Assembly: GCA_900318565.1 (NCBI GenBank)
Contig: ONLD01000014.1
Coordinates: forward strand, 1 to 56,611
Direction of reading: 5' to 3'
Source: an uncultured Bacteroidales bacterium
GTDB taxonomy: Bacteria; Bacteroidota; Bacteroidia; Bacteroidales; UBA932
DNA length: 56,611 nucleotides
Part shown: positions 1 to 56,611 of the stretch, in pieces
Layout of the letters: each line of letters starts with the position of its first letter
Numbering within the stretch: position 1 is the stretch's first letter
Made by a program: the position numbers and the translations under genes
The notes under the pieces: generated by a model
What the model was told of the DNA's origin: nothing
The model's input: only the letters and a program-made list of their open reading frames with translations
Databases searched by the model: none

Positions 1-54
1 ATCGAAAATCCGGAATCGGAATCAATAACTCGAGGGGATCGTTCAAATATGTAA
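1..54 (+). CDS. Possible C-terminal tail of an unidentified protein (partial)
   Basis: Frame 1 is open from the first base to a TAA at 52-54 and would give 17 residues ending in DRSNM. Too little is present to name a family. The only support for it being coding is position: a hairpin followed by a T run lies 8 bases after the stop, as expected for the 3' end of a + strand gene. It could equally be non-coding. Confidence 0.3.
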   Translation: MENPESESITRGDRSNM

Positions 55-62
55 ATCTCAGG

Positions 63-86
63 AGGTTATTTGGGGATAACCTTTTT
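63..86 (+). terminator. Intrinsic terminator, + strand
   Basis: Stem AGGTTAT (63-69) pairs with ATAACCT (76-82) around a TTGGGG loop, and the stem runs into five T (82-86). It would end transcription of the gene entering from the left. Confidence 0.55.
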
Positions 87-224
87 CAGTGGCCTCTTAA
101 AACGCCGGGACGATTTCTTGTAATTGATTGACTAGAAGCAGATTACATTTCACGCAAAATAAGGACACCCAAGCAGTCTGCCGGGCAGGCAGTTAAGACG
201 CCCCTACCGCGAGAGCGAACGGGG

Positions 225-248
225 AAAAACCGGCGGCATTGCCGGCTT
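225..248 (-). terminator. Probable terminator after prfA
   Basis: On the minus strand, CCGGC (245-241) and GCCGG (234-230) form a short GC stem around AATGCC, followed by TTTTT (229-225). It lies 25-48 bases past the prfA stop and would close the recG-prfA operon. The stem is only 5 bp. Confidence 0.5.
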
Positions 249-272
249 TGCCACGCCTGCCAATGGTCAGGA

Positions 273-1358
273 TTATTCCCCCGCTTCCTTGAGGCGCTCA
301 GCGTTTTCGGCAATCTGGAGCTGGTCTATGCATTCCTGGATGTCGCCGTCCATAAAGACGGGCAGGTTGTACATACTCCAATTGATGCGATGGTCGGTCA
401 CACGGCCCTGGGGATAGTTGTAGGTACGGATTTTGGCGCTGCGGTCGCCGGTGGAGACCATAGTCTTGCGCTTTGCGGCGATGCCGTCGAGGTACTTCTG
501 GTGCTCCAGGTTGTAGAGCCTTGTACGGAGCTCTTCGAAAGCGCGGTCCTTGTTTTTGAGCTGCGAACGCTCTTCCTGGCACTGCACCACCAGACCCGAA
601 GGAATGTGGGTGAGGCGCACTGCGGAATAGGTCGTATTCACGCCCTGTCCGCCGGGGCCCGAAGAGCAGAAAAGGTCGAGACGGATATCGTCCCAGCTGA
701 GGTCCACGTCAAACTCGCCCGCTTCGGGGAACACCGCCACAGAAGCCGCTGAAGTCTGGATGCGGCCCTGGGTCTCGGTCTGCGGCACCCTCTGGACGCG
801 GTGCACGCCAGACTCATACTTCATCACGCCATAGACGCCGTCTCCGCTGAGCTTGAAGACAATCTGCTTGAAGCCGCCGGAGGTGCCGGGCGCCTGGTCG
901 GTGACCTCGAGACGCCAGCCCTTGGACTCGGCAAAATGCTGATACATACGGAAAAGGTCGCCTGCGAAAATAGCGGCCTCGTCTCCTCCGGTACCGCCGC
1001 GGATTTCCACGATGGCATTCTTGGAGTCATCGGGGTCAGCGGGAATCAGCAGGAGCTTGATTTCCTGCTCGAGAGCGGGAATCCTGGGCTCAAGCTCGGC
1101 AATCTCTTCGCGGGCCATCTCCCGGAGCTCCTCGTCCTTCTCATTGAGCATAATGTCCTTGGCCGACTGCAGGTCGGAGACTACCTTCTCGTACTCGTGG
1201 CCCTTCGCGATGATGGGCTCGAGCTCCTTATAGTCCTTGTTGAGCTGGACGTACTTCTTCATATCGGACATCACTGCCGGATCCGACAGCTGGTCCTGTA
1301 TGGACTTGAACTTTCCTTCGAGGGAAAGCACCTTTTCAATCAATGTGTTCTCTGCCAT
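273..1358 (-). CDS. prfA: Peptide chain release factor 1
   Basis: Class I release factor that reads UAA/UAG in the ribosomal A site and triggers peptidyl-tRNA hydrolysis. The catalytic GGQ is at residues 236-238 (GPGGQG), followed by VNTT and the conserved ERSQ-KNK region. The stop-codon reading loop is PQT at 192-194, the PxT form of RF1; RF2 would carry SPF. The length of 361 aa is normal for RF1, and no programmed frameshift is present, as expected. It is the last gene of the operon: the upstream acetyltransferase-like gene ends 3 bases before this ATG, and a hairpin follows the stop. Methylation of the GGQ glutamine by PrmC is expected from the family, but prmC is not in this window. Confidence 0.98.
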
Positions 1359-1361
1359 AGC

Positions 1362-2477
1362 TTAAGCTATTTTCTTGATATAGCAGCGACGCCTCATAAA
1401 AGGCTCGTGCTCGTAACTGTTCCAAATATTCACGGCGCTGTTGGACTCTATCTGAGGATTCGAAATCGCCCAGCGGTTGCCGATGCGCGCGGCCTTGTCG
1501 GCCATTTCCTTGTAGTACACGGCGGAGACGCCCTTGTTCTGCCACTCGGGCACGGCGCCGTTGATCATCAGGTCGGTGGTCTCGTAATTGCGGAGGGCCT
1601 TGAGCAGATGTATCCAGCCGAAGGGGAAAAGATGTCCCTTAGCCTTCTGAAGGGCCTTGGATATACTCGGGAAGGAGATTCCGAAAGCTACGATTTCATC
1701 TTTCTCGTCCAGCACCAGGCAGCTGGCCTTGTCGGAGATGAAGCGCATCGACATACGGGCTTCCTCCTCAATCTCTTCTTCCGTGAACGGGATGAAATTA
1801 TAGACCGTCTGGGAAAAACTGTCCGAATACACGTGGAAGAAATGGCGCACCAGCTCCTTGTCTTTCTTGAGCTTGTCCAGGCTTCCGAAATGCAGGTTGT
1901 AGCGCTCCTCCACAATCTTTGCGACCCGGCGGGCCTTCTCGGGCACGCCGTGGTTGGCTACCATCTTGTACTGCACCCAGTCGCACTCCTTCTCGAATCC
2001 GAGAGCCGCCATTAAATCATTGTAGTACGGGAAGTTGTAGAGGCAGTTGAAGGGCGGGATATTCTCATAGCCCTCAACCAGCATACCCTGCTTGCCGAGG
2101 GTGTTGTAGTAGAGAGGACCGTGGATTTCTTCCATACCCTGGGCGCGGGCCCAGTCTTCGGCGGCGCCGATGAGCAGTTTCGCCACCTCGATGTCGTTGA
2201 TGCAGTCAAACCAGCCGAACCTCACGCTCTTGCGGGAATAGCGCTCGTTGAAACGGGGGTTTATCATAGCGCAGATGCGTCCGACCACCCTGCCGCCGTC
2301 TTCGGCCAGCCAAAGCTTGTTGGTACAGTACTTAAGGCTCGGAGACTTGGTCAGCGAGTGAATCTGGTCCGAGTGCAGGGCCGGCACATACTGCGGGCAG
2401 TTCCTGTAAAGCTCATCCGGAAAGCGGACAAACTTCAGAAGCTGGGAACGCGATTTGACTTCTACAAGATTAAACAT
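1362..2477 (-). CDS. GNAT-like acetyltransferase-fold protein, conserved in Bacteroidota
   Basis: A 371-aa cytoplasmic protein that looks like the large GNAT-fold 'hypothetical/N-acetyltransferase' proteins of Bacteroidota. It has no signal peptide. The N-terminal half includes VGRICAMIN and GLVEGY-like stretches; the C-terminal half has NKGVSAVYYKEM followed by SNPQIESNSAVNIW, which resembles the acetyl-CoA-binding turn and the N-x-x-A-xx-x-W end of GNAT domains. The substrate cannot be told. The start MFNLVEVK (ATG at 2477) was chosen because conserved-looking protein begins there and the upstream in-frame stretch overlaps tcdA. It lies 11 bases after tcdA and 3 bases before prfA, so it is co-transcribed. 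GNAT assignment is by pattern, not by alignment. Confidence 0.7.
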   Translation of the reverse strand: MFNLVEVKSRSQLLKFVRFPDELYRNCPQYVPALHSDQIHSLTKSPSLKYCTNKLWLAEDGGRVVGRICAMINPRFNERYSRKSVRFGWFDCINDIEVAKLLIGAAEDWARAQGMEEIHGPLYYNTLGKQGMLVEGYENIPPFNCLYNFPYYNDLMAALGFEKECDWVQYKMVANHGVPEKARRVAKIVEERYNLHFGSLDKLKKDKELVRHFFHVYSDSFSQTVYNFIPFTEEEIEEEARMSMRFISDKASCLVLDEKDEIVAFGISFPSISKALQKAKGHLFPFGWIHLLKALRNYETTDLMINGAVPEWQNKGVSAVYYKEMADKAARIGNRWAISNPQIESNSAVNIWNSYEHEPFMRRRCYIKKIA

Positions 2478-20199: not shown

Positions 20200-21519
20200 T
20201 CAGGCCTTGCGCCTGTTAAGTGCAATCCGTGCCTGGAGTTCCCAGGTGCGGATTCTGTCTTTATAGAGGTTGTTGGCGTTGACTTTAATTACGTCGAGGG
20301 CCGTGTCGGAATTGCCGCCCCAGCGGCGGCAGTTGTACATCACGTCGTAGATGCGGCCGATTCGGTATTCCCTGCTTATGCGCAGCGCCACGGCATAGTC
20401 TTCACCGTACTTGGTCGTCGGGAAGTTGATCTGCCGGAGCAGAGGGGTCCAGAAGCCGCGGGGAGCGCCGAGCCCGTTGACGCGAAGGGCGTTGTTGCGC
20501 CCGTTGTCGGGAGTCCACTCCCTGTGGTCGATTATTCCCGGAGGAAGCTCGCGCATCTCGAAGTCGGTAATCCTGTAAGTCCCAACGACCATCGCGCATT
20601 TCTGCTCGCGGAAGGCATCCACGAAGCGCTGCACGGTAGTATTGTCGGAATACACGTCGTCCGAATCCAGCTGGAGGGCGAAGCGTCCGCAGCGGGGATG
20701 GTGCACGGCGGCGTTCCAGTTGCCTCCGATGGCGTGATAAGTCTTGTCCTGGGCAATGTAAATCAGCCTCGGGTCACTCTCGAATGAGCGTATGACATCG
20801 ACCGTGCCGTCGTCGGAATTGTCGTCCACGACGATGACATTGTACGGGAAATCCGTCTTCTGGTCGAGGGCGGAACGGATTGCGTCGCCTATGGTCTTCA
20901 CCCTGTTGCGGCACGGAATCACCACGGAAGCCTCCACCTCGAACGGCACGCTGTCCAGGTCCACGTCCTTGAACACCGGTTCGAGATAGCCTCCGATGCG
21001 CTTCAGATGCGCCGTGCAGACCTTCTCCATCTCCACCTGCACCGCCCTGTTGCGAGGATCCACATAATCGAACAGCTTCACCCCGGAATCCCTGCGGTCG
21101 GTCTCGGTCTCATAGTAGAGAAGCTCATTTATATGCACAAGGGGGCCGATCTCGGACACCCTGAGGCGCAAATCATAAAGAGCCGCGAACTCATAGTCGG
21201 CATCCATTTCAGAGACGGCTTTCTTGAGGGCGTCGGTGCGGTAGAGCTGGACTCCTCCGAAGTCGAAATCGTCCCGGAGCGACCCCTGCTGATAATCAAT
21301 CACTGGCGAAGGGACATCACCGTCAAAATGGTCGGCATAGGCGAGAGCGGCGCCGCTGTCGGCGGCAATCTGCAACATCCTCTCGAGGCCGAAATGCACC
21401 CAGTCCAGGCGGGTCTGGCGGGTATAAATGAGCGTGTATTCAGTATCCGTCTTGGACGCCACCTCGCGCACGGAGGCGGTAGAAGTCCTGGCGGGGAGAT
21501 CAAATCTTTTTACTTCCAT
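20200..21519 (-). CDS. Family 2 glycosyltransferase with an extra N-terminal domain
   Basis: A 439-aa protein. The C-terminal half (about residue 195 on) is a GT-A glycosyltransferase: EASVVIPCRNR, VIVVDDNSDDGT, and LQLDSDDVY, where the DSDD is the DxD-type metal/nucleotide-sugar site. The N-terminal 190 residues look like a degenerate second GT2 copy missing its own first strand (ALAYADHFDGD, then DFDFGGVQLYRTDALK). No signal peptide or membrane helix is present. It begins immediately after the cstA stop (no gap) and is the last gene of the FAD oxidoreductase-galM-cstA operon. Donor and acceptor sugars cannot be inferred. Confidence 0.85.
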   Translation of the reverse strand: MEVKRFDLPARTSTASVREVASKTDTEYTLIYTRQTRLDWVHFGLERMLQIAADSGAALAYADHFDGDVPSPVIDYQQGSLRDDFDFGGVQLYRTDALKKAVSEMDADYEFAALYDLRLRVSEIGPLVHINELLYYETETDRRDSGVKLFDYVDPRNRAVQVEMEKVCTAHLKRIGGYLEPVFKDVDLDSVPFEVEASVVIPCRNRVKTIGDAIRSALDQKTDFPYNVIVVDDNSDDGTVDVIRSFESDPRLIYIAQDKTYHAIGGNWNAAVHHPRCGRFALQLDSDDVYSDNTTVQRFVDAFREQKCAMVVGTYRITDFEMRELPPGIIDHREWTPDNGRNNALRVNGLGAPRGFWTPLLRQINFPTTKYGEDYAVALRISREYRIGRIYDVMYNCRRWGGNSDTALDVIKVNANNLYKDRIRTWELQARIALNRRKA

Positions 21520-22979
21520 TTATCTATTGTTAAGAGCCTTGCGGCGGACTTTAAGCACATACCTCACGAGCACGGCAGCCGATACCAGCGCCCATCCCAG
21601 GGCAAACCACTTGGTCCACTCCAACGGCAGGCCGAGACAGGTCTTGTCCACGCAGAAGAAGGTAAGACACACAGTGAACATAAACACGGCCGGAATGCCT
21701 CCGATGAGGAACTGCCAGCCGAGAGGATATTTGCGTATGAGCCATACGGTTATCGTGGCAAGGAAGCACACTGCAAGCGTCTGGTTGGACAAGCCGAAAT
21801 AACGCCAGATTATGTTGAAACCGTCCTCGTTGCTGATATTGAACCACAGCAGGACGCCCACGGCAGCGAAAATCGGGAGGCTTATGAGCAGGCGGTTACC
21901 GATCTTGTCCTGCTTGATGTGCAGGAACTCAGCGATATTGAGACGCGCCCCGCGAAGGGCGGTATCGCCAGAAGTGATGGGAGCGGCCACTACGCCGAGA
22001 ATGGCAAGGATGCTGCCCACGAGGCCGAGCCAGTGCTTGCTGATGGCGGTCACGACCTGGGGCGCGGAGGCGCTCTGGAGACCGCACTCCTGCATACCGC
22101 CGTCGAAGAAGAAATACGAACTCACGGCTGCCCAGATAAGCGCCACGACGCCTTCGGTAATCATAGCGCCGAAGAACACGGGGCGCCCCATACGTTCATT
22201 CTTGAGGCACCGTGCCATAAGCGGGCTTTGGGTGGCGTGGAAGCCGCTCACGGCCCCGCAGGCCACGGTTATGAACAAGCACGGGAAGATGTTCTGTCCC
22301 TTGACGCCCACCGAGGGGGCGCGGTTCTGCAGGCCGTCCCAGAACTCGGGAATGGAAGGCCATTTGGCAAACAGGCCGAACATCATAGCCACGGCCATAA
22401 AGAGCAGCGCAATGGCGAAAATCGGATAAATGCGGCCTATCAGCTTGTCGATTGGAAGGAGCGTCGCGATGATGTAGTACACCAGGATGATGATGGCCCA
22501 GATCAGTATCCAGCGGGAAGTCCCGTCTCCTGCGATATCTCCGAGGATAAGGGCCGGACTGTACACGAACACCGTGCCTACCATCAGCAGGAGGAAGGTC
22601 GTGAAAAGCACTGGCTGCCCTTGATTTCGGAGCCTATGATCTCGGGATAGGTCGCTCCTCCTTTGCGCATAGAGAGCATACCTGAGAAATAATCGTGCAC
22701 CGCTCCGGCGAAGATGCTGCCGAGCACGATCCAGAGGTAGCACGAAGGGCCGAACTTGGCGCCCATAATCGCGCCGAAGATGGGCCCGGTACCGGCTATG
22801 TTCAGGAACTGAATCATATACACCTTCCAGGAAGGCATAGGCACATAATCCACCCCGTCCTGCATCGACACGGCCGGAGTCACCCTGGCAGGGTCGGCGC
22901 CGAAAAACTTCTCGACCACCCGGCCGTAGATGAAATAGCCCACGACAAGGGCCACTATACTGATAATGAAAGAATACAT
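21520..22979 (-). pseudogene. cstA: Carbon starvation protein CstA-type peptide transporter, frameshifted
   Basis: The reading frame is split. The first part (22979 to about 22618) has MYSFIISIVALVVGYFIYG, NIAGTGPIFGAIMGA and SGMLSMRKGGATYPEIIG; the second part, in another frame, continues with LLLMVGTVFVYSPALIL and multiple helices to 21520. Together they give about 486 residues, right for the short Bacteroidota CstA, a proton-coupled peptide or pyruvate transporter. The switch falls at a CCC run near 22618-22620, where one extra base would restore the frame. It could be a real mutation or a sequencing/assembly error; a second gene (36305) has the same net -1 shift. It lies between galM (9-base gap) and the glycosyltransferase (0 gap). 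Confidence 0.85.
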
Positions 22980-22988
22980 AAAGCGTTA

Positions 22989-24032
22989 TTATTCAACTCC
23001 GAAAGCAAAAACTATGGCCTCGTGGAAGGTCTTGCCGGGCCTCAGCACCACGGGAGGATACTCCGGGCGGTTGGGGCTGTCCGGAAAATGCTGGCACTCT
23101 ATGGCCACGCCGTCATAATCCCTGTACACGCGGCCCTTCTTGCCCTTGGGGCAGCCGGAAAGCCAGTTGCCGGTATAAATCTGCACGCCGGGCTGGGTAG
23201 TCGTCACGCGGAGGGTGCGGCCGCTGGAAGCCGCCTTAAGCAGCGCGGCATCCTGGAGCTGGCCGGGAGTATATCCGTCTATGAGCCAGCAGGCATCGTA
23301 GCCCTTGCCGATTTTCAGCGCGGGGAAATCCTTGCGGATATCGCGTCCGAGGCGCTTGGAATTGAGGAAATCCATAGGCGTACCGGCCACGGGCTCGGAC
23401 TCGCCGAGAGGAATAAGGGTGGAGTCCGTAGGCAGATATTCCGATGCATTGAGCTTCAGGGTATGGCGCAGCACGGAACCGCGGCAGTCCAGGTTGAAAT
23501 AGGCGTGGTTGGTAAGGTTGACCACTGTCGGCGCGTCACTCTTGGCGGTGAAGGTAAGAGTGAGGACGTTGTCTTCGCTCCATTCGTAGTGGGCCACGAC
23601 CGCCAGCTTGCCGGGATAGCCCATTTCGCCGTCGGCGGCCACATACTTGAATTCCACGGCGCCGCCCTTCTTGCGGGACTCCCATACCTGGTTCTGGAAC
23701 CCCTCTGGGCCGCCGTGCAGGTGGTTGGGGCCGTTGTTGACAGGCAGCTCGTAAGTCTTGCCGTCAAGACTGAAACGCCCGCGCGCTATGCGGTTGGCGA
23801 AGCGCCCGGGACACTTGCCGAAGCAAGGGCCGTCAGCTATGTAGTTTTCGGCCTTGCCGTAACCCAGCACCACGTCCCCGAGCCTTCCTTCTCGGTCAGG
23901 CACGTTGACCGACACGATGCCGGCACCGATGTTGGTCAGCACCACGGATGCGCCTGACGCATTGGTAATTGTATAACGGTAAATGGCTTTGCCGTCCGCA
24001 GTTCTGGACCAGATTTTTCTCGAAACAGTCAT
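22989..24032 (-). CDS. galM: Aldose 1-epimerase (mutarotase)
   Basis: A 347-aa galactose mutarotase-like protein that interconverts alpha and beta anomers of aldoses. Family signatures are visible in order: VVLTNIGAGIVSVNVPDREG, GRFANRIARGRFSLDGK with the substrate-binding N-R, NGPNHLHGG with the conserved His, then VVNLTNHAYFNL with the catalytic His in NHAYFNL, and GVQIYTGNWL near the C-terminus. The catalytic Glu is likely in GVAIECQHFPDSPN. No signal peptide is seen, so it should be cytoplasmic. It lies 19 bases after the FAD oxidoreductase gene and 9 bases before cstA, suggesting an operon for sugar or peptide use. Confidence 0.95.
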   Translation of the reverse strand: MTVSRKIWSRTADGKAIYRYTITNASGASVVLTNIGAGIVSVNVPDREGRLGDVVLGYGKAENYIADGPCFGKCPGRFANRIARGRFSLDGKTYELPVNNGPNHLHGGPEGFQNQVWESRKKGGAVEFKYVAADGEMGYPGKLAVVAHYEWSEDNVLTLTFTAKSDAPTVVNLTNHAYFNLDCRGSVLRHTLKLNASEYLPTDSTLIPLGESEPVAGTPMDFLNSKRLGRDIRKDFPALKIGKGYDACWLIDGYTPGQLQDAALLKAASSGRTLRVTTTQPGVQIYTGNWLSGCPKGKKGRVYRDYDGVAIECQHFPDSPNRPEYPPVVLRPGKTFHEAIVFAFGVE

Positions 24033-24051
24033 AGTATTCAGTGTCTATTGG

Positions 24052-25452
24052 TTACACAAAAGCGCCGAGCCGCCGCACTTCTCGCACGAGAGCATCGGTA
24101 TCAATATCCTGCACGGGGCGTCCTTCCTTCAGGCTATGGACGGCGGCGACGCCGGCAGCCTGTCCCAGGCCCATACAGCTGGCCTGCACGCGCAGGGAAG
24201 CGAGGGCCTTGCGGTCGGCGGAGATGCAGCGCCCGGCCACGATAAGGTTGGGGAAACCGGGAGCCACCATAGCCCTGTACGGCACGTAGGCGGCCTGCTG
24301 CAGCTTTATGAGCACCTGCCCCGAGCCTTTGCTGGAGTGCATATCTATCTGGTGCGCACCGCGCGAAATGCTGTCGGGATAGTGCTCGCCTGCCACATAT
24401 TCTTCGGCTGTGACGGTGTGGACGCCCACAATGCGGCGCGACTCACGTATGCCCGCCTGCGGAGCGCAGGAAGAGACGTAGCAGTCTGCAAACTCAGGGA
24501 AGTGCTGCCGCAGCAGGGAGGTGAAGGTGAATATATCCTCACGCAGCCGGCACTCGGCAGCTGTGAAGTTGCGGTTGTCAGTGGAATCCGCTGCGCTGCG
24601 GGTGATATTCACGGCCACGCTTCCACGGTGCATCACGCTGTTGAACCAGGGGCCTCCGAAATCCGGCACCGGGACGCCCGCGGCCTTGAGGGCGAGGAGC
24701 TTTTCGCGCACAGGCTTGCACTCGCTAGAGCCTTTGCGGCCGCTGTGGTACATATACCTGGTCAGCAAATCGCTGTCAGTATCGACGCCGGAGAGCACGA
24801 AGCAGAACGATGACGGCTGCAGGTCGCCGCTTTCCTGCATAGGCACGCCGCAGAGATGGGCAAGGTCGCCGTCTCCGGTGGCGTCGATGAAGACGCGGCC
24901 GGCCAGCGATTCGAGGCCGTTTTTATTCTGGATGACGGCGGAGACTATTTTCCCTCCTTCCATCTCGCAGCCTATGAGAGAAGAGTGCATAAACACGCTC
25001 ACCCCGGCCTCGAGGACCATCCTCTGGGCGCAGAGCTTATACAGCTCTATGTCGAAATCCACATTGCCTTTCGGCCATTCGACGAAAGCGCCGCCCAACT
25101 CTTCCAGCCGGCCGACGAACTCCCAGGGGATGCCGCCGATGACCCTTTCTCCGCCGAAAGCGAATTCACTGATAGGGGCCACATAGCCCATCGTAGCCAT
25201 ACCGCCGAGGAAACCGTAACGTTCCACCAGGGCGACCTTCGCCCCCATCCTCGCGGCTGCGATTGCGGCTATGAAACCGGAAGGGCCGCCGCCGCACACG
25301 ACTACGTCGAAACTTCCGGCATCAGGGGCAGCCTTGCTGAACTCCCCTTCCGCGGAGCCTTTGCGGGAAACAGCCGCGGCAGCACTGCCGGAGCTGAGGG
25401 CAAGAGCGACTGCGCCCGCCACACTGTCTTTTAAAAAGAGCCTTCTGTCCAT
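24052..25452 (-). CDS. FAD-dependent oxidoreductase with Tat-type signal
   Basis: A 466-aa protein of the FAD_oxidored type. The N-terminus MDRRLFLKD has the twin-arginine motif RRxFLK followed by a hydrophobic AGAVALALSSGSAAAA stretch, so export of the folded flavoprotein by Tat is likely. The Rossmann FAD site follows: DVVVCGGGPSGFIAAIAAARMGAKVALVER, then FLGGMATMG. FIDATGDGDLAHLCG and the C-terminal NLIVAGRCISADRKA are typical of this family. The substrate is unknown; several relatives sit in sugar-use loci, which fits galM next door. The ATG at 25452 was chosen for the Tat motif and a TATATTTG box 4 bases upstream; an in-frame extension starts inside that promoter. First gene of a four-gene operon. 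Confidence 0.88.
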   Translation of the reverse strand: MDRRLFLKDSVAGAVALALSSGSAAAAVSRKGSAEGEFSKAAPDAGSFDVVVCGGGPSGFIAAIAAARMGAKVALVERYGFLGGMATMGYVAPISEFAFGGERVIGGIPWEFVGRLEELGGAFVEWPKGNVDFDIELYKLCAQRMVLEAGVSVFMHSSLIGCEMEGGKIVSAVIQNKNGLESLAGRVFIDATGDGDLAHLCGVPMQESGDLQPSSFCFVLSGVDTDSDLLTRYMYHSGRKGSSECKPVREKLLALKAAGVPVPDFGGPWFNSVMHRGSVAVNITRSAADSTDNRNFTAAECRLREDIFTFTSLLRQHFPEFADCYVSSCAPQAGIRESRRIVGVHTVTAEEYVAGEHYPDSISRGAHQIDMHSSKGSGQVLIKLQQAAYVPYRAMVAPGFPNLIVAGRCISADRKALASLRVQASCMGLGQAAGVAAVHSLKEGRPVQDIDTDALVREVRRLGAFV

Positions 25453-25456
25453 AATA

Positions 25457-25464
25457 CAAATATA
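25457..25464 (-). promoter_or_regulatory. -7 box of the FAD oxidoreductase operon
   Basis: Minus-strand TATATTTG, ending 4 bases before the ATG at 25452; the message would be nearly leaderless. Confidence 0.55.
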
Positions 25465-25502
25465 ATGATTTTTCAGTAAATGTGATTTTTTTCGGAACAA
25501 GT

Positions 25503-25533
25503 GTTGCACGAATCAAAATAATCTCTATATTTG
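25503..25533 (+). promoter_or_regulatory. Promoter of the trp leader
   Basis: TTG (25503-25505), 20 bases, then TATATTTG (25526-25533). Both element and spacing match the Bacteroidota -33/-7 consensus. The start point should fall near 25538-25541, just at the leader peptide ATG. Confidence 0.7.
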
Positions 25534-25540
25534 CGGAAGT

Positions 25541-25618
25541 ATGTGTTGCAAAATGACTGATATGTTCCAGAGCAAGTTCTGGTGGCGCCTGAAAGGATAT
25601 TCCGGTCAGGTACTCTAG
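25541..25618 (+). CDS. trpL: Tryptophan leader peptide (attenuator)
   Basis: A 25-codon open frame, ATG at 25541 to TAG at 25616-25618, with in-frame ATG alternatives at 25553 and 25562. Codons 14 and 15 are tandem TGG (25580-25585), giving FWWR. Right after them CCTGA (25588-25592) can pair with TCAGG (25606-25610), enclosing GGA-TAT-TCC, which would be the hairpin disturbed by a ribosome stalled at the Trp codons. A strong terminator follows at 25662 before trpB. This is the layout of a ribosome-mediated trp attenuator: low Trp-tRNA stalls the ribosome and lets transcription go through. The competing antiterminator pairing was not resolved by eye. Confidence 0.85.
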   Translation: MCCKMTDMFQSKFWWRLKGYSGQVL

Positions 25619-25661
25619 TCGTGCGCGCAAATTCCGGCCTCGTGCCGGGGCAAAGATACAG

Positions 25662-25697
25662 GGGGGCTGTCCGGAAAAGGACGGCCCCCATTTTTTT
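25662..25697 (+). terminator. Attenuator terminator upstream of trpB
   Basis: GGGGGCTGTCC (25662-25672) pairs with GGACGGCCCCC (25679-25689), 11 bp with one G-U, loop GGAAAA, followed by A and seven T (25691-25697). It lies 43 bases after the leader stop and 29 bases before the trpB ATG. A smaller hairpin CCGGC/GCCGG lies at 25634-25648. Confidence 0.85.
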
Positions 25698-32339: not shown

Positions 32340-33430
32340 ATTTTGATGCTTTTGTATGCTCCTATCATCTTGAGACGGTCGCATACTGTTTCCAGCTGGC
32401 GCAGCAGGTCGCGGCCGTTTTCGGTGCCGACGCCGCCTTCGAGCTCGGCGAAGAAGTAGTGGTTCCAGAGAGGGCCGGCTACGGGGCGGCTGTGCAGCGA
32501 AGACATATTGAATCCGTGCGAGCCTATGATATTCAGAATCTTGGCAAGGGCGCCGGCCTCGTTGCGCACCGTAAATACGAGTATGAAGTGCTCTCCTTCG
32601 GTCTCGGGCTGGCTGGTTTTGTTGCGGGCCCGCGAGAACACGGCGAAGCGCGTCTGGTTGGCGACGGCCGAATTGATTCCGGCCTCGAGCACTTCAAGGC
32701 CGTAGAGAGAGGCCGTCTGGCGGGAAGCGATGGCGCCGATGCTCTTGTCCGCAGTCGAGGCCACGTATTCAGCGGCGGCGGCCGTGTTGCTGAATTCACG
32801 GACGTCGAACCCCCGCTCGGTTATGAAACGGGCGCACTGGGCAAGGGCCTGAGGATGGCTCACGACCGTGCGTATGTCTTCGGGGCGGGCTCCGGGGATG
32901 CCTAGCAGGTTCTGGTGTACATCCAGCTCGAGCATAAGATTTATGTAGAGGCTGCCCTGGAAAGTCAGGTCCATCACGCCGCCCACATCGCCCGCGAAGC
33001 TGTTTTCGATCGGGAGGATGGCGGTGTCGGCCTCCCCGGTCTCACAGGCCCTGTAGGCGCTTTCGAAATCGGGATACGGCACTATGTCGGCCTGGGGGAA
33101 GATGCTCTCGGCGGCGATGTGGGCAAAGGCTCCGGGGACGCCGCAATAGGCTATTTTCATCCCGTTCATCAGGCGACCCTGATATGCTTTGGACAGCTTC
33201 ATCAGGTCGCGCAGGAACAATACATAGTATTCCTGTATCGCCGGGTCCGCGATGTTGCCGGCGTTGCGGGCTATGACCCGTTCTTCCTGCGCGGCGTCGA
33301 GTATTGGCAGGCCGTTGCCTTTCTTGTAGTCGAGCACCTTGCCTGCGAGGCGCATTCTCCGCTCGAAGAGGGATGCTATTTCTTTATCGACTTCCGCTAT
33401 GCCCTGCCGGGCTTCTTCCAATTCGTTCAT
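32336..33430 (-). CDS. pheA: Bifunctional chorismate mutase/prephenate dehydratase
   Basis: A 364-aa P-protein for phenylalanine synthesis. Residues 1-90 are an AroQ-type chorismate mutase helix bundle (IAEVDKEIASLFERRMRLAGKV). Residues about 91-275 are prephenate dehydratase, starting MKIAYCGVPGAFAH and holding the catalytic Thr-Arg-Phe in ANQTRFAVFSR. Residues about 283-360 are an ACT domain (GALAKILNIIGSHGFNMSSLHSRP), which binds Phe for feedback control in relatives. It is the first aromatic gene of the operon; a GC hairpin and 74 bases separate it from the rubredoxin gene upstream. No leader peptide rich in Phe codons was found. Confidence 0.95.
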   Translation of the reverse strand: MNELEEARQGIAEVDKEIASLFERRMRLAGKVLDYKKGNGLPILDAAQEERVIARNAGNIADPAIQEYYVLFLRDLMKLSKAYQGRLMNGMKIAYCGVPGAFAHIAAESIFPQADIVPYPDFESAYRACETGEADTAILPIENSFAGDVGGVMDLTFQGSLYINLMLELDVHQNLLGIPGARPEDIRTVVSHPQALAQCARFITERGFDVREFSNTAAAAEYVASTADKSIGAIASRQTASLYGLEVLEAGINSAVANQTRFAVFSRARNKTSQPETEGEHFILVFTVRNEAGALAKILNIIGSHGFNMSSLHSRPVAGPLWNHYFFAELEGGVGTENGRDLLRQLETVCDRLKMIGAYKSIKI

Positions 33431-33453
33431 AGAGTGCTGTGATTAATGAGAAA

Positions 33454-33482
33454 GACGCGTGGCCGAAACCGAGCCGCGCGTC
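33454..33482 (-). terminator. Hairpin between rubredoxin and pheA (weak terminator)
   Basis: GACGCGTGGC (33454-33463) pairs with GCCGCGCGTC (33473-33482) with one mismatch. On the minus strand it is followed by TTTCTC, a poor T tract, so partial read-through from the rubredoxin promoter into pheA is possible. Confidence 0.45.
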
Positions 33483-33504
33483 CTTTGTTTTGGAGTCGTG
33501 CGGA

Positions 33505-33639
33505 TTACTGTTCGGGCTCGAACATATCTTTACCTACTCCGCAAAGGGGGCAGAGCCAGTCTTCGGGGAGCTTGTCAAAAGGTACGCCTTCGACTTCTTC
33601 GTCATAGACGTGTCCGCAAACGGTGCAAACGTATTTCAT
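33505..33639 (-). CDS. Rubredoxin
   Basis: A 44-aa one-iron electron carrier. The two Cys-x2-Cys pairs are Cys5/Cys8 ([12 protein letters not shown]) and Cys30/Cys33 ([13 protein letters not shown]), with the usual [13 protein letters not shown] stretch between. It is slightly shorter than typical rubredoxins (about 52 aa) but the fold elements are all present. Rubredoxins in anaerobes pass electrons to peroxide- or superoxide-detoxifying enzymes; no partner gene lies beside it. A full TTTG-N19-TATATTTG promoter precedes it. It is in front of, and possibly co-transcribed with, the pheA operon. Confidence 0.95.
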
Positions 33640-33661
33640 ATCTTTAGTTTTTATATTCTTG

Positions 33662-33692
33662 CAAATATAATCAATCTCCGATATAAATCAAA
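33662..33692 (-). promoter_or_regulatory. Promoter of rubredoxin (and perhaps the aromatic operon)
   Basis: On the minus strand TTTG (33692-33689), 19 bases, then TATATTTG (33669-33662): a perfect match to the Bacteroidota -33/-7 consensus, 22 bases upstream of the rubredoxin ATG. Confidence 0.75.
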
Positions 33693-33725
33693 TACCCTTC
33701 TCCCGACTGCTGCTGCGCTATCCGC

Positions 33726-33796
33726 CAAAATGTCGGCCTATTTGACAAAATGTCTTGATTTTCAGACAATTAGGCAGAAAAATAGGACAAAATGTA
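33726..33796 (+). promoter_or_regulatory. Three phased CAAAATGT repeats upstream of hsp20
   Basis: CAAAATGTC at 33726-33734 and 33746-33754, CAAAATGTA at 33788-33796. Starts are 20 and 42 bases apart, about two helical turns each. The middle copy sits in GACA-AAA-TGTC, an inverted repeat. They lie 111-181 bases before the Hsp20 ATG and may bind a regulator. Confidence 0.4.
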
Positions 33797-33837
33797 CAAA
33801 AATTCAGGATGGTCCCGGATTTGAGATTACATTAAGC

Positions 33838-33860
33838 GTCCGGCGTCCCAGACGCAGGAC
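33838..33860 (+). other. Hairpin in the region 5' of hsp20
   Basis: GTCC-G-GCGTC (33838-33847) pairs with GACGC-A-GGAC (33851-33860) around CCA: 9 pairs and one mismatch. It is 46 bases before the ATG and does not cover the AGGAG ribosome site near 33893, so it is not an obvious RNA thermometer. Confidence 0.35.
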
Positions 33861-33906
33861 CTTGAAACAAAAACAATAACAAATTTAAATTATAGGAGAT
33901 TTTATT

Positions 33907-34344
33907 ATGTACCCTGTCAAAAGAAATCAAACCTGGCTTCCCAGTATTTTCAGTGACCTGTTCGACGACGATTTCGCAGTGATGCCCGCAAGGCAGTATG
34001 CTTCCCCGGCAGTCAACATCAAGGAGACCGAAAAAGAGTTCAAGATTGAAATCGCGGCTCCCGGAATGACCAAAGAAGATTTCAACGTGCGCATCGACAA
34101 CGACGACGAACTCGTCATCGCACTCGAGAAGAAGAACAAGAAAGAGGAGAAGGACGAGAAAGGCACCAACTACCTCCGCCGCGAATTCTCCTACACTTCC
34201 TACCACCAGAGCTACACTCTCCCCGAGAACATCGACCTGGACAACATCTCGGCCGAGATGGTCAACGGAGTGCTCAACATCACCCTTCCCAAGAAGGTGG
34301 AAGAGAAGAAAGTTCCGGCTTCCCGCCAGATAGAAGTCAAATAA
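33907..34344 (+). CDS. Hsp20/alpha-crystallin small heat shock protein
   Basis: A 145-aa ATP-independent holdase chaperone. The alpha-crystallin domain runs from about residue 36 to 135: VNIKETEKEFKIEIAAPGMTKEDFNVRI, the loop-rich charged KKNKKEEKDEKG segment, FSYTSYHQSYTLPENID, and the terminal AEMVNGVLNITLPKK with the conserved GVL. It starts with an AGGAG ribosome site about 9 bases upstream. It stands alone and converges with the LytTR regulator gene with 3 bases between the stops. Upstream repeats suggest stress control. Confidence 0.95.
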   Translation: MYPVKRNQTWLPSIFSDLFDDDFAVMPARQYASPAVNIKETEKEFKIEIAAPGMTKEDFNVRIDNDDELVIALEKKNKKEEKDEKGTNYLRREFSYTSYHQSYTLPENIDLDNISAEMVNGVLNITLPKKVEEKKVPASRQIEVK

Positions 34345-34347
34345 GGC

Positions 34348-35070
34348 TTATCCCAGACTACGGTCTCTCAGATAGTCTTTAAGTTCCTGCCGGTAGAGTT
34401 CCCCTACCGGCAGTTTTGTGCTGTCTTCCAGCACGACCTCCCCCTTTCCGACTTCCTTAAGGTGCGCAAGGGAAATGATATACGAACGGTGAATCCGCAT
34501 AAAGCGCGACTCCGGGAGTTTCTCACAAAGAAGCTTCAGGCTCAACAGCACCAGCAGCGGAGCCCCTGCCCCGAGGGTGTATATTTTCACATACTCGCTC
34601 ATACTCTCCACATAGAGAATGTCTTCGAGCCTGACACGGACGGTCTTGTAGTCGGTCTTGAAAAACAGGGCATCGTCAGAGACGCCGCTCTCAATGGAGG
34701 ACTGGGCGTGGAGAGCCTCGAAACGGGCCCTGAGCCTGTCGCAGGACTTGATAAAGTCCGAAAGCGAGAAAGGCTTCAGCAGATAATCGACGGCATCCAC
34801 CTTGAAGCCTTCTACGGCATACTCCGAGTATGCCGTAGTAAACACCACCAGAGGCGCCGCAGCCAGAGTGCGCACGAAGTCCACCCCCGACAGGTCGGGC
34901 ATATTGATGTCCAGGAACATAGCGTCCACGGCCCTTTCCTCCAGCACGGCCCGCGCCTCAAGGGCGCTGCGGCACGAGGCCACCAATTTCAGGAAAGGCA
35001 CTTTGGCTATGTAGGACTCGAGCTGCCTGAGCGCCAGCGGCTCGTCGTCAACGGCAATAACTTTAATCAT
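34348..35070 (-). CDS. LytTR-family response regulator
   Basis: A 240-aa two-component regulator. The receiver domain has the acidic pocket VDDEPLALRQLE and phosphoacceptor Asp54 in FLDINMPDLSGVDF, then TTAYSEYAVEGF and Lys in DYLLKPFSL. Residues about 135-238 are a LytTR DNA-binding domain (IESMSEYVKIYT-like VESMSEYVKIYT, MRIHRSYIISLAHL, LPVGELYRQEL). LytTR proteins bind direct repeats about two helical turns apart; such a pair lies upstream of the kinase gene at 36220. The start overlaps the kinase stop by 4 bases (ATGA). Confidence 0.95.
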   Translation of the reverse strand: MIKVIAVDDEPLALRQLESYIAKVPFLKLVASCRSALEARAVLEERAVDAMFLDINMPDLSGVDFVRTLAAAPLVVFTTAYSEYAVEGFKVDAVDYLLKPFSLSDFIKSCDRLRARFEALHAQSSIESGVSDDALFFKTDYKTVRVRLEDILYVESMSEYVKIYTLGAGAPLLVLLSLKLLCEKLPESRFMRIHRSYIISLAHLKEVGKGEVVLEDSTKLPVGELYRQELKDYLRDRSLG

Positions 35071-36179
35071 AACTGCTTATCTGTTTTGGAGGGCAGCACG
35101 AGCAAAACCTCGTAGGCCTCGGCTGAATCTTCTATGTGGAGGGTGAAATCCTCCCCGTACAGCAACTGAAGTCTCGAGCGCACATTCTCTATCCCCAGGC
35201 CCTTTCCCGACACGGAAGAAGAAGCCGGGAGGCTGTTCACGCAGCGGAATATGACCTTTCCGCCCTCCTGGGCTGCGTTTATGCGCACGAAGCTCCGCTT
35301 CTCATAGCTTATGCCGTGCTTGAAAGCATTCTCCACGAATGATGCAAGCGAGAGCGGAGGCACCTCCGCGCCCTCTTCGGACGCCGGGCGGATATATTCT
35401 ATGGACACAGAATCCGGGAAGCGCAGGCGCATCAGGGAAATATAATGCTCCAGCAAGTCCAGCTCGTCCCGGAGCGGAATCGTGGCCTTGTCGGAGTCGT
35501 AGAGTATGTGCCGCATCATCTTCGACAGCTCCACGATGCTCTCCTTGGCCTTCTCCGGGTCCAGGTCCACAAGGGCGTGGATGTTGTTGAGCGTGTTCAT
35601 AAAGAAATGGGGGTTGATCTGGTAGCGAAGGTATTCCAGCTGGTAGCGCAGGTTTTCCTTCTCCAGTCTTTCCATAGACTCCCGCTCACGGATGCCGCGG
35701 AAATAGAACTTTAGCCCGAGGTTCGCACCCATCATTATCAGCGCGACTACGGCCTCGAGCACGTCAGGCTGCATCGGATGCCTGCCGCCTTCGGGCCCGC
35801 GAGGTCCCCGCGGTCCTTCCGGGCCGAACCCGTCCGGAGCGAAGCCCGGCTCAGGAGGAGGGCCTCCCGCCCCTGGATCTCCGTGGCCGAGGGAGAGATA
35901 AGCCACGAAAAGGCCGAAAAGCAGCACGGAAGCGGCAACATATACTGCCGTCCGCTTATGATAGACAAGCTGCGGAGCCGCCAGGTAATTGTGCAGCAGG
36001 AAAAGCACGAGGAAGGGCAGCAGTCCCAGCCACGACTCCAGCAGGGAGCGGATTTCAAAGCCGGAGCCGTCCAGCAGGCCTGTGACTACGCCACGCAGGC
36101 CGAGCAGCAGGAAAAAGGACGCCCATACCACCAGGTACAAGACGTTTTCCTTTCCGTTTTCTTTCCCTAACAGTTTCAT
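35067..36179 (-). CDS. LytS/YehU-type sensor histidine kinase
   Basis: A 370-aa membrane kinase. The N-terminal third has about four hydrophobic helices (starting VLYLVVWASFFLLLGL). Between the third and fourth lies an unusual Gly/Pro stretch with GPEGPRGPRGPEGG, a short collagen-like G-x-y run. A coiled linker (RERESMERLEKENLRYQLEYL) leads to the His_kinase domain: phospho-His in INPHFFMNTLNNIHALV, N-box ENAFKHGI, and G-box GKGLGIENVRSRL. The ATG at 36179 was chosen over one six codons upstream because a TATTTTTG box ends 5 bases before it. It pairs with the overlapping LytTR gene and faces a cell-envelope operon. Confidence 0.92.
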   Translation of the reverse strand: MKLLGKENGKENVLYLVVWASFFLLLGLRGVVTGLLDGSGFEIRSLLESWLGLLPFLVLFLLHNYLAAPQLVYHKRTAVYVAASVLLFGLFVAYLSLGHGDPGAGGPPPEPGFAPDGFGPEGPRGPRGPEGGRHPMQPDVLEAVVALIMMGANLGLKFYFRGIRERESMERLEKENLRYQLEYLRYQINPHFFMNTLNNIHALVDLDPEKAKESIVELSKMMRHILYDSDKATIPLRDELDLLEHYISLMRLRFPDSVSIEYIRPASEEGAEVPPLSLASFVENAFKHGISYEKRSFVRINAAQEGGKVIFRCVNSLPASSSVSGKGLGIENVRSRLQLLYGEDFTLHIEDSAEAYEVLLVLPSKTDKQL

Positions 36180-36184
36180 ATCTG

Positions 36185-36192
36185 CAAAAATA
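36185..36192 (-). promoter_or_regulatory. -7 box of the kinase-regulator operon
   Basis: Minus-strand TATTTTTG, ending 5 bases before the kinase ATG. Confidence 0.5.
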
Positions 36193-36219
36193 GGCAATAA
36201 AGAGCAAAGTAAAATCCCG

Positions 36220-49773: not shown

Positions 49774-50928
49774 TTAAATATCTATTTCGATGCTCCCTCG
49801 ATCATTCCAGTGATCTACGGTAGGATCGACAAAAATCTTGAACAAGTTAACGGTAAAGTTGTAAGTATAACGATAACCCATCTTCCATTCCTCGATGTTG
49901 ACGGGAGTCCCTCCGTCGTCATACTGGAAATAGCTTCCGGACTTGCCGGTCACAAGGTCGATGGTGTCGGTGGTGATTGACGTGCTGCCACCGGTAGTAC
50001 GGGAATACCGGACCTCGATCTTCACGTGGTTCGTACCGTGATCAAGGTTCTGGGGGATTAGCAGCAGCAGGTCGGGAGCCACGTACGGGGTACTTGTGAG
50101 CTGGACTCCGGAAGCGGCCGCGCCGGTGTTGCGGTAAGCATAGTAAGACACTTCCGCTGCATCGCCGTCAGGAGTCCAGACAGGAGTGCCGCCGTCCAGA
50201 TGCTGAGCGAAACTGGCTTTATCCCAGACATTTATCACCCGTATGCTCTGCAAGCGTATTGTCTGGATGGCGTGCTCGTCCACGTTCGCTTTGATTTTAA
50301 AGCGTATAGAGCTGAGGGCGTGGCGGAAACGGATGTCGATGCCGTTGTACGCAGCGCCGTCACCGGATATCTCGTCATAAGGCACTCCGGGAGTATAGTC
50401 GGGGCGTTGCTTGTCGAGATGCCGGTCGCTGTAGAGAAGGTCATACTGGCTTCCAACCGCACGGGGACGGAAGCCCGAGAACGAGAAGCCGCCGGTCCAG
50501 TCGTGGCTCACGCTGCAGTCGTCCCGGGCAGCAGAAGGCGAATATGCCTGGAAGCTGAGGTAGAAACTCCCGACTGCAGGAGGCAGCCAGAAATAAGGAT
50601 GCTGCGGAGCCCAGGCATTGATGGAAGGTTCCCACTCGCATTCTTCGTTCTCAATGTAATAATTGCTGAGTTCTGCAGGGGTGGTCAGGGAAGCGAAAGG
50701 CGCCGTGTGGGCCAGCGCATACACGCTGAAATGCTCGCTGGTGCTATAGTTCACGCCCATTTCCGCATTGGGGGCACCAGGATCGGCCTTGGTCGAAGGC
50801 CCCACTGCGGGAGTGTTGAAGACAAGGGCAACGGGAGTCTCGTCACGCATCTCGGCAAGAGTGCGCGTGCAGCCTGCGGGCAGCAGAAGCAGTGAGACCA
50901 GGATAAGTATGGCGTTGCTCTTATTCAT
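49774..50928 (-). CDS. Fimbrillin family lipoprotein
   Basis: A 384-aa protein with lipobox LLPAGC. Fimbrillin traits: VALVFNTPAVGPSTKADPG, EHFSVYALAHT, YFWLPPAVGSFYLSFQAYSPSA, IDIRFRHALSSIRFKIKANVD with the family's RHALSS motif, and the tail VDHWNDRGSIEIDI. It overlaps the upstream fimbrillin by 8 bases. Two in-frame alternatives for function, shaft subunit or accessory subunit, cannot be separated from sequence alone. Confidence 0.87.
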   Translation of the reverse strand: MNKSNAILILVSLLLLPAGCTRTLAEMRDETPVALVFNTPAVGPSTKADPGAPNAEMGVNYSTSEHFSVYALAHTAPFASLTTPAELSNYYIENEECEWEPSINAWAPQHPYFWLPPAVGSFYLSFQAYSPSAARDDCSVSHDWTGGFSFSGFRPRAVGSQYDLLYSDRHLDKQRPDYTPGVPYDEISGDGAAYNGIDIRFRHALSSIRFKIKANVDEHAIQTIRLQSIRVINVWDKASFAQHLDGGTPVWTPDGDAAEVSYYAYRNTGAAASGVQLTSTPYVAPDLLLLIPQNLDHGTNHVKIEVRYSRTTGGSTSITTDTIDLVTGKSGSYFQYDDGGTPVNIEEWKMGYRYTYNFTVNLFKIFVDPTVDHWNDRGSIEIDI

Positions 50929-51862
50929 AGAACGGATTTGAAGATATTACGGTATCGTCCAGTATGAGGGACTCCCCGTCAGGATTAAAAGACAGCACGA
51001 CCGTGTAGTGACGGCCCGCCTCAAGGGTCTTGACAAGGGGATCGGACTCCAGGTTCAGCAGGTGGATAACTCCGTTGCTGCCGACATACTGGATCCTTGC
51101 CCTGACAACGGAATTCACCCCCTGCGGGATAGTCCAGCGGCCTCCGGGGAGGCGCGTATTTTCCTGGCCCACAGGGGTAAGGCCGTTGTAGAACAAGACT
51201 TCGCGGAACGGTCCGCCGACCGTCCAGGAAGCCTCAGGAAGCGAAGAAAAACTGCCGGAGCAGCGAAGCGAAGCCAGACTCACCTGCTGCACATTGACGC
51301 TCTCCGAGGCAGAAGCGTTGCTGCGGATTGCAAAATCCACATAACACAACGCATGGCGGAAAGGCACGCTGACGGTGCCTCCCTGGCTCTTGTCCAGACC
51401 TTCCGAAAGTTCCATATACAGGAGGTCCGTCTGGTCCGAGTATGTATCCACATTGCGGAACTCCACTCCGGAGCTCAGCGAGATGCGGTCGGCCCATCCG
51501 AAAGGCGAATGGGCGAGCACGGCGAGCTGCCGCTTGCCCGAAGGCCAGTTGACGGAAGGGACAGTGGTCCACTCGCCCGAGATGCAGCTTACCCGCTCTC
51601 GGGAGAGGAAAGCCGAGGCCTCCCCCAGCTCCCCTCCCGACGGGTAATCCCACACATCCACGCCGAAATCAACACCCTCAGGGTATTCTCCCAGACCCTC
51701 GGCCTTGCTGGCTGAATAGAGCACAGGGTCAAAGGTCAGGCGCAGCTTAAGGGTATCGTCGTAGCGCTCAGCGAGTGTGCAGGAGCACGCTCCGCCTAGG
51801 GCCGACCACAACAGCAACGCTGCCGCGGCGACCCTCAGCGAATATGTGCCTCCTTTAAGCAT
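50921..51862 (-). CDS. Fimbrillin-like lipoprotein
   Basis: A 313-aa protein with lipobox GGACSC. It is shorter than its neighbours but shows LRLTFDPVLYSASKAEG, VNWPSGKRQLAVLAHSPFG, VSVPFRHALCYVDFAIRSN (the RHALxx strand) and an ending without a Trp tail. The gene holds the only CATG found in this window (51351-51354), within the His-Ala codons of RHAL. The ATG overlaps the upstream TAA by one base (TAATG), and the 3' end overlaps the next fimbrillin by 8 bases, so translation is coupled. Confidence 0.82.
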   Translation of the reverse strand: MLKGGTYSLRVAAAALLLWSALGGACSCTLAERYDDTLKLRLTFDPVLYSASKAEGLGEYPEGVDFGVDVWDYPSGGELGEASAFLSRERVSCISGEWTTVPSVNWPSGKRQLAVLAHSPFGWADRISLSSGVEFRNVDTYSDQTDLLYMELSEGLDKSQGGTVSVPFRHALCYVDFAIRSNASASESVNVQQVSLASLRCSGSFSSLPEASWTVGGPFREVLFYNGLTPVGQENTRLPGGRWTIPQGVNSVVRARIQYVGSNGVIHLLNLESDPLVKTLEAGRHYTVVLSFNPDGESLILDDTVISSNPFYE

Positions 51863-55625: not shown

Positions 55626-55652
55626 AACTTGTTTTTTCGCCCAAAAAACTTT

Positions 55653-55683
55653 TAAAGTTACTAATTATCTGCGATAAAAACAA
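55653..55683 (-). promoter_or_regulatory. Candidate promoter of the pilus operon
   Basis: On the minus strand TTG (55683-55681), 20 bases, then TAACTTTA (55660-55653), one base off TAnnTTTG. The TTG start codon follows 27 bases later. Confidence 0.5.
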
Positions 55684-55684
55684 G

Positions 55685-55722
55685 AAAAAAGTGCAACAGA
55701 AGAATCTCTGTCGCACTTTTTT
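55685..55722. terminator. Bidirectional terminator between CBM9 gene and pilus operon
   Basis: AAAAAAGTGCAACAGA (55685-55700) and TCTGTCGCACTTTTTT (55707-55722) form a stem with one mismatch, flanked by A and T runs that serve both strands. It ends the queF-CBM9 transcript before the pilus promoter. Confidence 0.8.
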
Positions 55723-55745
55723 AGTTATTTAGCCGAGGATGTCAG

Positions 55746-56378
55746 CTACAAAGAAAACTCTCCGAAGAACTCAGGACGGTGGAAATCCGGTGAGGGTGTA
55801 CCGACCGGATTCCAGGTGACAAAATGAGGATGAGCCGTTTTGTCTCCGCACTTGTATATATTGCCGCGAAGCTTTGCAGGCAGGTTGTCCGGGTCCAGCC
55901 CGAGGAGCTCGAAAGGAATCAGCACAAGGACTCTCCAGTCCCAGATTCCGCCTTCGTGGTCCTGTGGGCCCTCGACACTCGCCACACGGATGATTCCTGC
56001 CACGTCTTCGTCACTCAGCTTCACTCTGTCGCCCCTGCCCGTACCGCGGGCCGCAAGGATTTTTCCGGCGGCATTGATTTCAAAATTGAAATAAGCATCG
56101 TCCCCTGGCACCTGAAGGAAAAGCTCGCAGCAGCTGTCTTCCCACTGCCGCTGGTTATCCGACAGATTCTGCACCCGGAGGTCAAGTCCGCTGACGTGGA
56201 AATCCACGATAAGGGAATCCTCGGTGCGGGCGATTCTTCCGCCGCAGAGCGGAGCATAAGGGAAGGCATCGGGCCAGTTGACGCGGTCCACGATGAAACG
56301 GGCGCCCCCAAGTTCGAGGGCGGTGTCCATATCGGTCTCTTCCAGGCCGGCGAGGAGGGGAATGCGGAGAGCGGTCAT
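55746..56378 (-). CDS. CBM9-like carbohydrate-binding family protein
   Basis: A 210-aa protein without a signal peptide. It shows the family 9-like beta-sandwich: ALCGGRIARTEDSLIVDFHVSGLDLR, DNQRQWEDSCCELFLQ, YFNFEINAAGKILAARG, DWRVLVLIPFELLG, LRGNIYKCGDKTAHPHFVTWNPVGTPSPDFHRPEFFGEFSL. The last stretch, with W-NP-x-G-xx-PDFH-P-FG, is a strong signature of these proteins. Stand-alone members are common in Bacteroidota; the ligand is unknown and the absence of a signal peptide argues for an intracellular role. It starts 4 bases after the queF stop, so they are co-transcribed. Confidence 0.85.
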   Translation of the reverse strand: MTALRIPLLAGLEETDMDTALELGGARFIVDRVNWPDAFPYAPLCGGRIARTEDSLIVDFHVSGLDLRVQNLSDNQRQWEDSCCELFLQVPGDDAYFNFEINAAGKILAARGTGRGDRVKLSDEDVAGIIRVASVEGPQDHEGGIWDWRVLVLIPFELLGLDPDNLPAKLRGNIYKCGDKTAHPHFVTWNPVGTPSPDFHRPEFFGEFSL

Positions 56379-56382
56379 ATCG

Positions 56383-56611
56383 TTATTCGTGGGATTCCAG
56401 GCGGCGGAGCGCCAGCTCTTCGTAACGCGTGCCGGGACGGCCGTAATTGGTGTACGGATGGATGCTTATGCCGCCCCTGGGAGTAAAGAAGCCGGTAACT
56501 TCTATGTACTTGGGGTCCATCAACCTGATGAGGTCCTTGAGGATGATGTTCACGCAATCTTCGTGGAAGGCGCCGTGGTCACGGAAACTGAAAAGATAGA
56601 GTTTCAGGCTT
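56383..56611 (-). CDS. queF: NADPH-dependent 7-cyano-7-deazaguanine reductase (partial, 3' part)
   Basis: The last 75 codons of QueF enter from the right edge. QueF reduces preQ0 to preQ1 in queuosine synthesis. The visible part has [21 protein letters not shown], where FHE holds the substrate-binding Glu, then [31 protein letters not shown], the typical C-terminal block. The catalytic Cys and Asp lie in the missing N-terminal half. The stop TAA is at 56385-56383. Confidence 0.93.

Follow-up and report, generated by a model that had tools for sequence, protein, structure and literature searches.

The DNA stretch described here (hereafter, the window) comprises 56,611 bases, positions 1 to 56,611 of contig ONLD01000014.1 in the draft genome of an uncultured Bacteroidales bacterium (GCA_900318565.1), and is almost devoid of the self-complementary tetramer CATG. 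A sequence-only reading of the window, made without database searches, had claimed a near-total absence of this word and attributed it to exposure to a restriction enzyme of NlaIII-like specificity. The features relevant to this claim are the following:

1..56611, no strand: CATG-poor window, with 1 site against 177-211 expected
20200..36197, minus strand: gene block compared with relatives, in which 0 of the relatives' aligned CATGs are kept
50921..51862, minus strand: open reading frame (ORF) of 313 aa containing the sole CATG and adjoining the ORF at 51862-53121
51352..51355, no strand: sole CATG of the window, encoding His-Ala (CAT GCG) within ORF 50921-51862 (minus strand)

Exact counting upholds the claimed absence: the window holds 1 CATG where base composition predicts 211 and a second-order Markov model 177, a range that includes the previous hand estimate of about 200. 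CATG is the bottom-ranked tetramer under composition and Markov models alike, nowhere near expectation in the very check that the sequence-only reading had proposed; its count of a single site was right, and its position (51351-51354) was not, as the true start is 51352. When 28 window ORFs (37,635 bases) were shuffled 200 times preserving protein and codon usage, a mean of 120.7 CATGs was obtained (standard deviation 7.7, minimum 100) vs 1 in the real ORFs, the next-lowest palindromes being CTAG and GATC with 0.20 and 0.37 of their shuffle means. The 3,357 bases outside the listed ORFs contain 0 CATGs vs 8.5 expected. GATC, previously described as merely present, does occur but is also depleted (73 sites vs 218 expected, 0.34), and CCWGG is not depleted (200 vs 215 expected).

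The avoidance affects all three codon frames, as evidenced by codon-context counts in the window ORF set, which includes a few overlaps. The third base of the codon preceding an ATG codon is C in 0 of 189 cases, compared to 335 of 601 preceding Ile codons, in agreement with the previous observation that T, G or A ends these codons. Likewise, His before G is written CAC in 100 of 101 cases, as had been noticed, and CAT only once, vs 113 CAT codons out of 222 before other bases; NCA precedes TG in 0 of 90 cases and TT, TA or TC in 73 of 485. The base upstream of ATG starts (27 counted) is T in 16, A in 7, G in 4 and never C.

With one window protein, 28 loci were located in named genomes, seven of which lie in draft genomes of Bacteroidia or Bacteroidales, several of rumen origin. 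A codon-aligned comparison with six of these seven, which spanned 92,046 aligned bases at 72.7% identity and counted a site common to several relatives more than once, showed that 0 of 379 CATGs of the relatives are retained in the window, compared to 154 of 386 TGCA and 40 of 202 GTAC. The seventh relative (locus L088) was treated separately, with 0 of 9 aligned CATGs kept vs 7 of 24 TGCA and 2 of 17 GTAC, which brings the CATG total over the seven relatives to 0 of 388. The relatives' sites are substituted within open frames in the window, not missing from it.

The bases that replaced the lost words bear on a mutational origin, in which methylated C in CATG would deaminate or a Vsr-like repair enzyme would rewrite the word. 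TATG is the commonest fate of the relatives' CATGs (109 of 379; 137 of 379 together with CATA), and, among bases other than C preceding ATG, the T share is 0.50 in the window compared to 0.33 in the relatives. A C to T hypermutation was suspected from this TATG excess and was dropped after a control with Ile codons, which share AT with ATG and therefore represent a fairer control than other codons starting with A. At conserved four-fold codons that precede a conserved ATG and end in C in the relatives (n = 84), the third base in the window is T in 44 cases, G in 23, A in 17 and C in 0. At 151 such positions preceding Ile codons, C is unchanged in 91 and replaced by T in 30, by A in 16 and by G in 14, so that the T share among replaced C is 0.52 and 0.50, respectively. 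The split before other A-starting codons differs (T39 A25 G71). The Ile control thus accounts for the raised T share before ATG, and an excess of one substitution type at CATG was not found when 84 sites were compared with 60 changed control sites. Moreover, the loss of CAT as a His codon before G requires a T to C change, which lies outside cytosine deamination, CACG, the expected product of Vsr-like repair, accounts for only 38 of 379 fates, and the Vsr gene encountered in this genome lies in a CATG-bearing island (see below). A mutational or methylation cause, also floated by the sequence-only reading, is therefore disfavoured and regarded as very improbable. Since the replacement bases follow an ordinary spectrum, selection fits better than deamination: as judged from the alignments, the base changes are ordinary in kind but not in completeness. 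A selective, frame-independent action is likewise indicated by the comparison between species.

The depletion extends over the genome of the window (G000), a 2.31 Mb draft of 104 contigs that is 96.5% complete. In a sample of 0.97 Mb, in which about 4 kb of overlap enters the counts twice, 132 CATGs were found vs 3239 expected, compared to 2594/2925 for GTAC, 3842/4402 for TGCA, 1389/3893 for GATC and 136/1062 for CTAG (observed/expected). Both in the window and in the sampled genome, CATG is strongly under-represented beyond codon and composition effects. Of 58 stretches of G000 (1,000,988 bases, window included), 31 contain no CATG at all, and the residual sites are clustered, as 100 of 123 have a neighbouring CATG no more than 2.5 kb away, compared to a mean of 52.8 and a maximum of 75 over 500 random draws. 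Two of the CATG-bearing places carry restriction-modification loci:

L014 (G000 contig C32) 6170-8834: DpnII-type system (DpnM-, DpnII- and DpnA-like) carried by an integrative element that also encodes a Piwi-domain protein
L168 (G000 C66:22000-41000) 7024-11382: EcoRII-type endonuclease accompanied by a C5 methyltransferase and Vsr, within a CATG-bearing island

Contig C32, which encodes an integrase besides the Piwi-domain protein and the DpnII-type system, has 20 CATGs vs 57 expected. Eight further genomes of the genus encode a DpnA-like protein with 87-97% identity to that of C32, and one more has a counterpart with 73%; this similarity between protein sequences suggests that the locus may be a mobile system. 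As DpnII-type relatives recognize GATC and C32 itself carries CATGs, the DpnII-type system is not the agent of CATG loss, and its DpnM-like D12 methyltransferase was rejected as a candidate; so was the C5 methyltransferase on C66, which lies beside the EcoRII-type endonuclease. The C66 island is surrounded by otherwise CATG-free sequence and, given that CCWGG is undepleted, the EcoRII/Vsr locus is probably a recent arrival. Further CATG-bearing places encode an RHS repeat, a tRNA IPP transferase, PIN, acyltransferase or fimbrillin-like proteins, or proteins of no family, that is, a mixed set of genes.

A survey of the genus, which might be Cryptobacteroides, was performed with a 12-letter pattern containing CATG and, as control, the reversed pattern (containing GTAC), expressed as the ratio of counts. 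The distribution among 61 same-genus genomes is bimodal, with ratios below 0.3 in 12, between 0.3 and 0.7 in 0 and of at least 0.7 in 49 (median of all 61, 1.33), G000 being the lowest with 0.065. Among 40 genomes of other families, the lowest ratio was 0.45 (G068). As the genome is a draft of 104 contigs, an artefact might be considered, whether from the assembly, the library or codon usage; however, 49 genomes counted identically are not depleted, the lost sites are substituted within open frames and codon shuffles restore 120.7 CATGs, which makes such an artefact hardly credible. Two of the depleted genomes, G043 and G030, retain scattered residual CATGs (25 of 223 and 25 of 177 expected, in five 20-kb stretches). 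Inspection by eye of the flanks of the residual sites in G022, G043 and G030 (20, 25 and 25 sites) revealed no common flank that would indicate a longer recognition word.

In a phylogenetic tree, depleted and non-depleted species are interleaved. The marker, window protein 24052-25509, is a member of an expanded family and has matches of at least 74% in only 5 of 60 relatives, so that depleted genomes are sparsely represented in the tree; the row of G022 (57% identity), probably a paralogue, was not used. Within G000, the same protein has seven matches with 33-100% identity. G000 groups with L083/L084 (CATG 53/87 and 94/104 of expectation; support 1.0), G020 (7/63) with L085 (120/119; support 0.848 on 1,392 bases), and G047 (6/61) and G023 (36/71) are sisters (support 1.0, 88% identity). 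In this sister pair, G047 keeps 0 of 22 aligned CATGs of G023 along with 33 of 42 TGCA and 19 of 28 GTAC. As 15 of 27 CATGs of G023 are also present in L085, many of these sites are ancestral and the loss is placed on the G047 branch, which is about 0.067 substitutions per site long; G023 has retained 9 of 21 ancestral CATGs, 18 of 24 TGCA, 6 of 10 GTAC, 9 of 15 CATC and 13 of 24 GATG. As read from these alignments and the tree, the CATG purge can be fast and happened more than once among the relatives.

The rate at which CATG returns was estimated from private sites in L083 (3) and L084 (11), which give 2.5 and 9.0 per kb per substitution per site, respectively. The 23 isolated CATGs in the 1,000,988 bases of G000 fit 0.0025-0.009 substitutions per site without selection, a span of roughly 1.5-5% of the G000 terminal branch (0.17); this rough bound would become about five times looser were the clustered sites also native. 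The scarcity of isolated CATGs relative to this rate suggests that the agent in the G000 lineage acted until recently or still acts. Conversely, a restriction-modification system that has disappeared from these genomes, leaving the depletion as a mere trace, would be in line with the lack of detected cognate genes, the scattered residual CATGs of G043 and G030 and the avoidance traces documented for lost restriction systems (Rusinov et al., 2015; PMC4687349). Given that the G000 core is still near zero and that the span without an agent is so short, this possibility is considered rather unlikely.

The enzymes responsible were sought in the genomes. PF05315 (ICEA), presumably the family that holds NlaIII, had matches in 0 of 101 genomes in a search whose control was also silent and which was confined to this CATG endonuclease family; MT-A70 (PF05063) had no match either, again with a silent control. 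The methyltransferase matches in G000 consist of one D12 and one N6_N4, both within the DpnII-type locus, and one C5 within the EcoRII-type locus, with no match to N6_Mtase. A [DN]PP[YF] codon-pattern scan of the whole G000 gave 42 sites; those judged by eye as methyltransferase-like correspond to DpnM, DpnA, RsmD- and PrmC-like ORFs and one unclear NPPF frame. Among the ORFs of the sampled G000, 106 of 776 are under 52.5% GC; 20 of them were searched by Pfam and an overlapping set of 66 by PADLOC, which revealed abortive-infection and other candidate defence families and no restriction-modification system among the matches listed (25 of 36 families). The genome search for a CATG methylase or endonuclease suggested by the sequence-only reading thus detected no cognate enzyme. 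Of the cause it proposed, the part that stands is restriction-type selection; the NlaIII-like system itself was not found.

Altogether, the loss of one palindrome in three frames and genome-wide, switched on and off within a genus and rapid in a sister pair, supports restriction-type selection. It can be hypothesized that an orthodox Type II system, with separate endonuclease and methyltransferase and NlaIII-like action, would cut CATG sites that escape methylation, so that selection would remove the word from the genome, and that such systems were acquired more than once within the genus. In the G000 lineage the genes may reside on DNA absent from the draft (a plasmid or an unbinned island) or may have just been lost. 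We consider it probable, with some reserve, that a CATG-specific orthodox Type II system was gained repeatedly in the genus and was recently or is still active here; the restriction enzyme as agent, the methylation of CATG and the whereabouts of the genes are what we infer.

Several results weigh against this explanation. The cognate methyltransferase or endonuclease was sought in G000 and not found, the only methyltransferases detected being those of DpnII and EcoRII type. None of the four families is enriched among the depleted genomes in the comparison of 61 (depleted vs non-depleted: D12, 2/12 vs 19/49; N6_N4, 6/12 vs 14/49; C5, 2/12 vs 10/49; N6_Mtase, 3/12 vs 18/49), and four of the 12 depleted genomes, G001, G020, G030 and G043 (74, 80, 97 and 89% complete), have none of them over the cut-off, G020 having one weak N6_N4 match below it. 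A comparison of methyltransferase loci revealed a single one common to depleted genomes, the DpnII-type locus, present in three of them. In addition, intermediate values exist: the ratio of G068, outside the genus, locus L088 (CATG 22/54 expected) and, mildly, G023. On the other hand, G000 is a 96.5% complete draft in which a methyltransferase may have escaped detection, and G043, nearly GATC-free without a D12 or N6_N4 match, indicates that failure to find a cause in such drafts does not decide the matter.

The same genomes lacking the four families, among them the 97% complete G030, together with the failure of the G000 motif scan to yield a clear candidate, are compatible with an unrecognised agent acting without a methyltransferase of the large families, by means of another modification or as a nuclease tolerated by a site-free core. 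Such a CATG defence, self-protected outside these families, would move among species of the genus and empty the core within a few per cent of divergence. This alternative is doubtful, since the genomes are drafts and the loss of GATC in G043 also lacks a visible cause, the CATGs of the C66 island are embedded in a longer contig and would be cut by a nuclease acting alone, and, of the motifs [DN]PP[YF], SPP[YFW] and [DN]PPW, the pattern scan covered the first.

Other observations concern the same sequences. Counts of CTAG and TTAG are reduced both in the window and in all seven relatives (L083-L088, L102), and CTAA is low as well, only mildly in L083 and L087; these low counts are a lineage trait separate from CATG. 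GATC is very low in the 14-kb locus L088 (4/38 expected), which has intermediate CATG, and nearly gone in G043 (10/212 expected in 60 kb; L173-L175). The sole CATG of the window lies in a region of large minus-strand ORFs (43132-55625), two of them low-GC, in which the DUF4906 and fimbrillin-like matches are weak and a DUF3575 match is clear; the fimbrillin-like match of ORF 51862-53121 is weak and under the curated cut-off. In L249 (G000 C27), positions 10361-16397 contain a low-GC, CATG-free run of ORFs whose products include an AbiEi-like antitoxin, a PP2C phosphatase and a sigma factor; these may be defence genes that have long resided in the genome.

With one word, 61 related genomes and a datable sister purge, this genus represents an unusually clean natural experiment on the speed at which restriction remodels a genome, and could let the strength of self-restriction be measured. 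CATGs alone may flag foreign DNA in this lineage, and their loss points to an enzyme other than those detected. No report of CATG loss in this bacterial group was found among the titles and abstract openings searched.

Avoidance of Type II restriction sites in host genomes was reportedly described by Gelfand and Koonin in 1997. The NlaIII and HpyAI (iceA-hpyIM) systems recognize CATG, the same word as that lost here, whereas the ICEA family gave no match in the genomes searched, with its control silent. This genome has two orthodox Type II systems: the DpnII-type system of C32, with a depleted site (GATC), and the EcoRII/Vsr locus of C66, whose site (CCWGG) is undepleted in the window. In the survey by Rusinov et al. 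(2015; PMC4687349), avoidance is seen at the sites of orthodox Type II systems and mostly not at those of other types, with under-representation defined by a cut-off of 0.78 for Karlin's ratio. As in that survey, one short palindrome is rare, partly in common with relatives and often without cognate genes. CATG loss thus behaves like orthodox Type II site avoidance, of which it is an incomplete example, as the cognate methyltransferase was sought and not found. It differs in that observed/expected in the window is below 0.01 (under a Markov model, the 0.78 cut-off being Karlin's ratio), the depletion is on or off within one genus and 22 of 22 sites were lost in a sister pair. Site avoidance itself is already known from many genomes; the present case is set apart by its depth, its bimodality within the genus and a dated sister purge.

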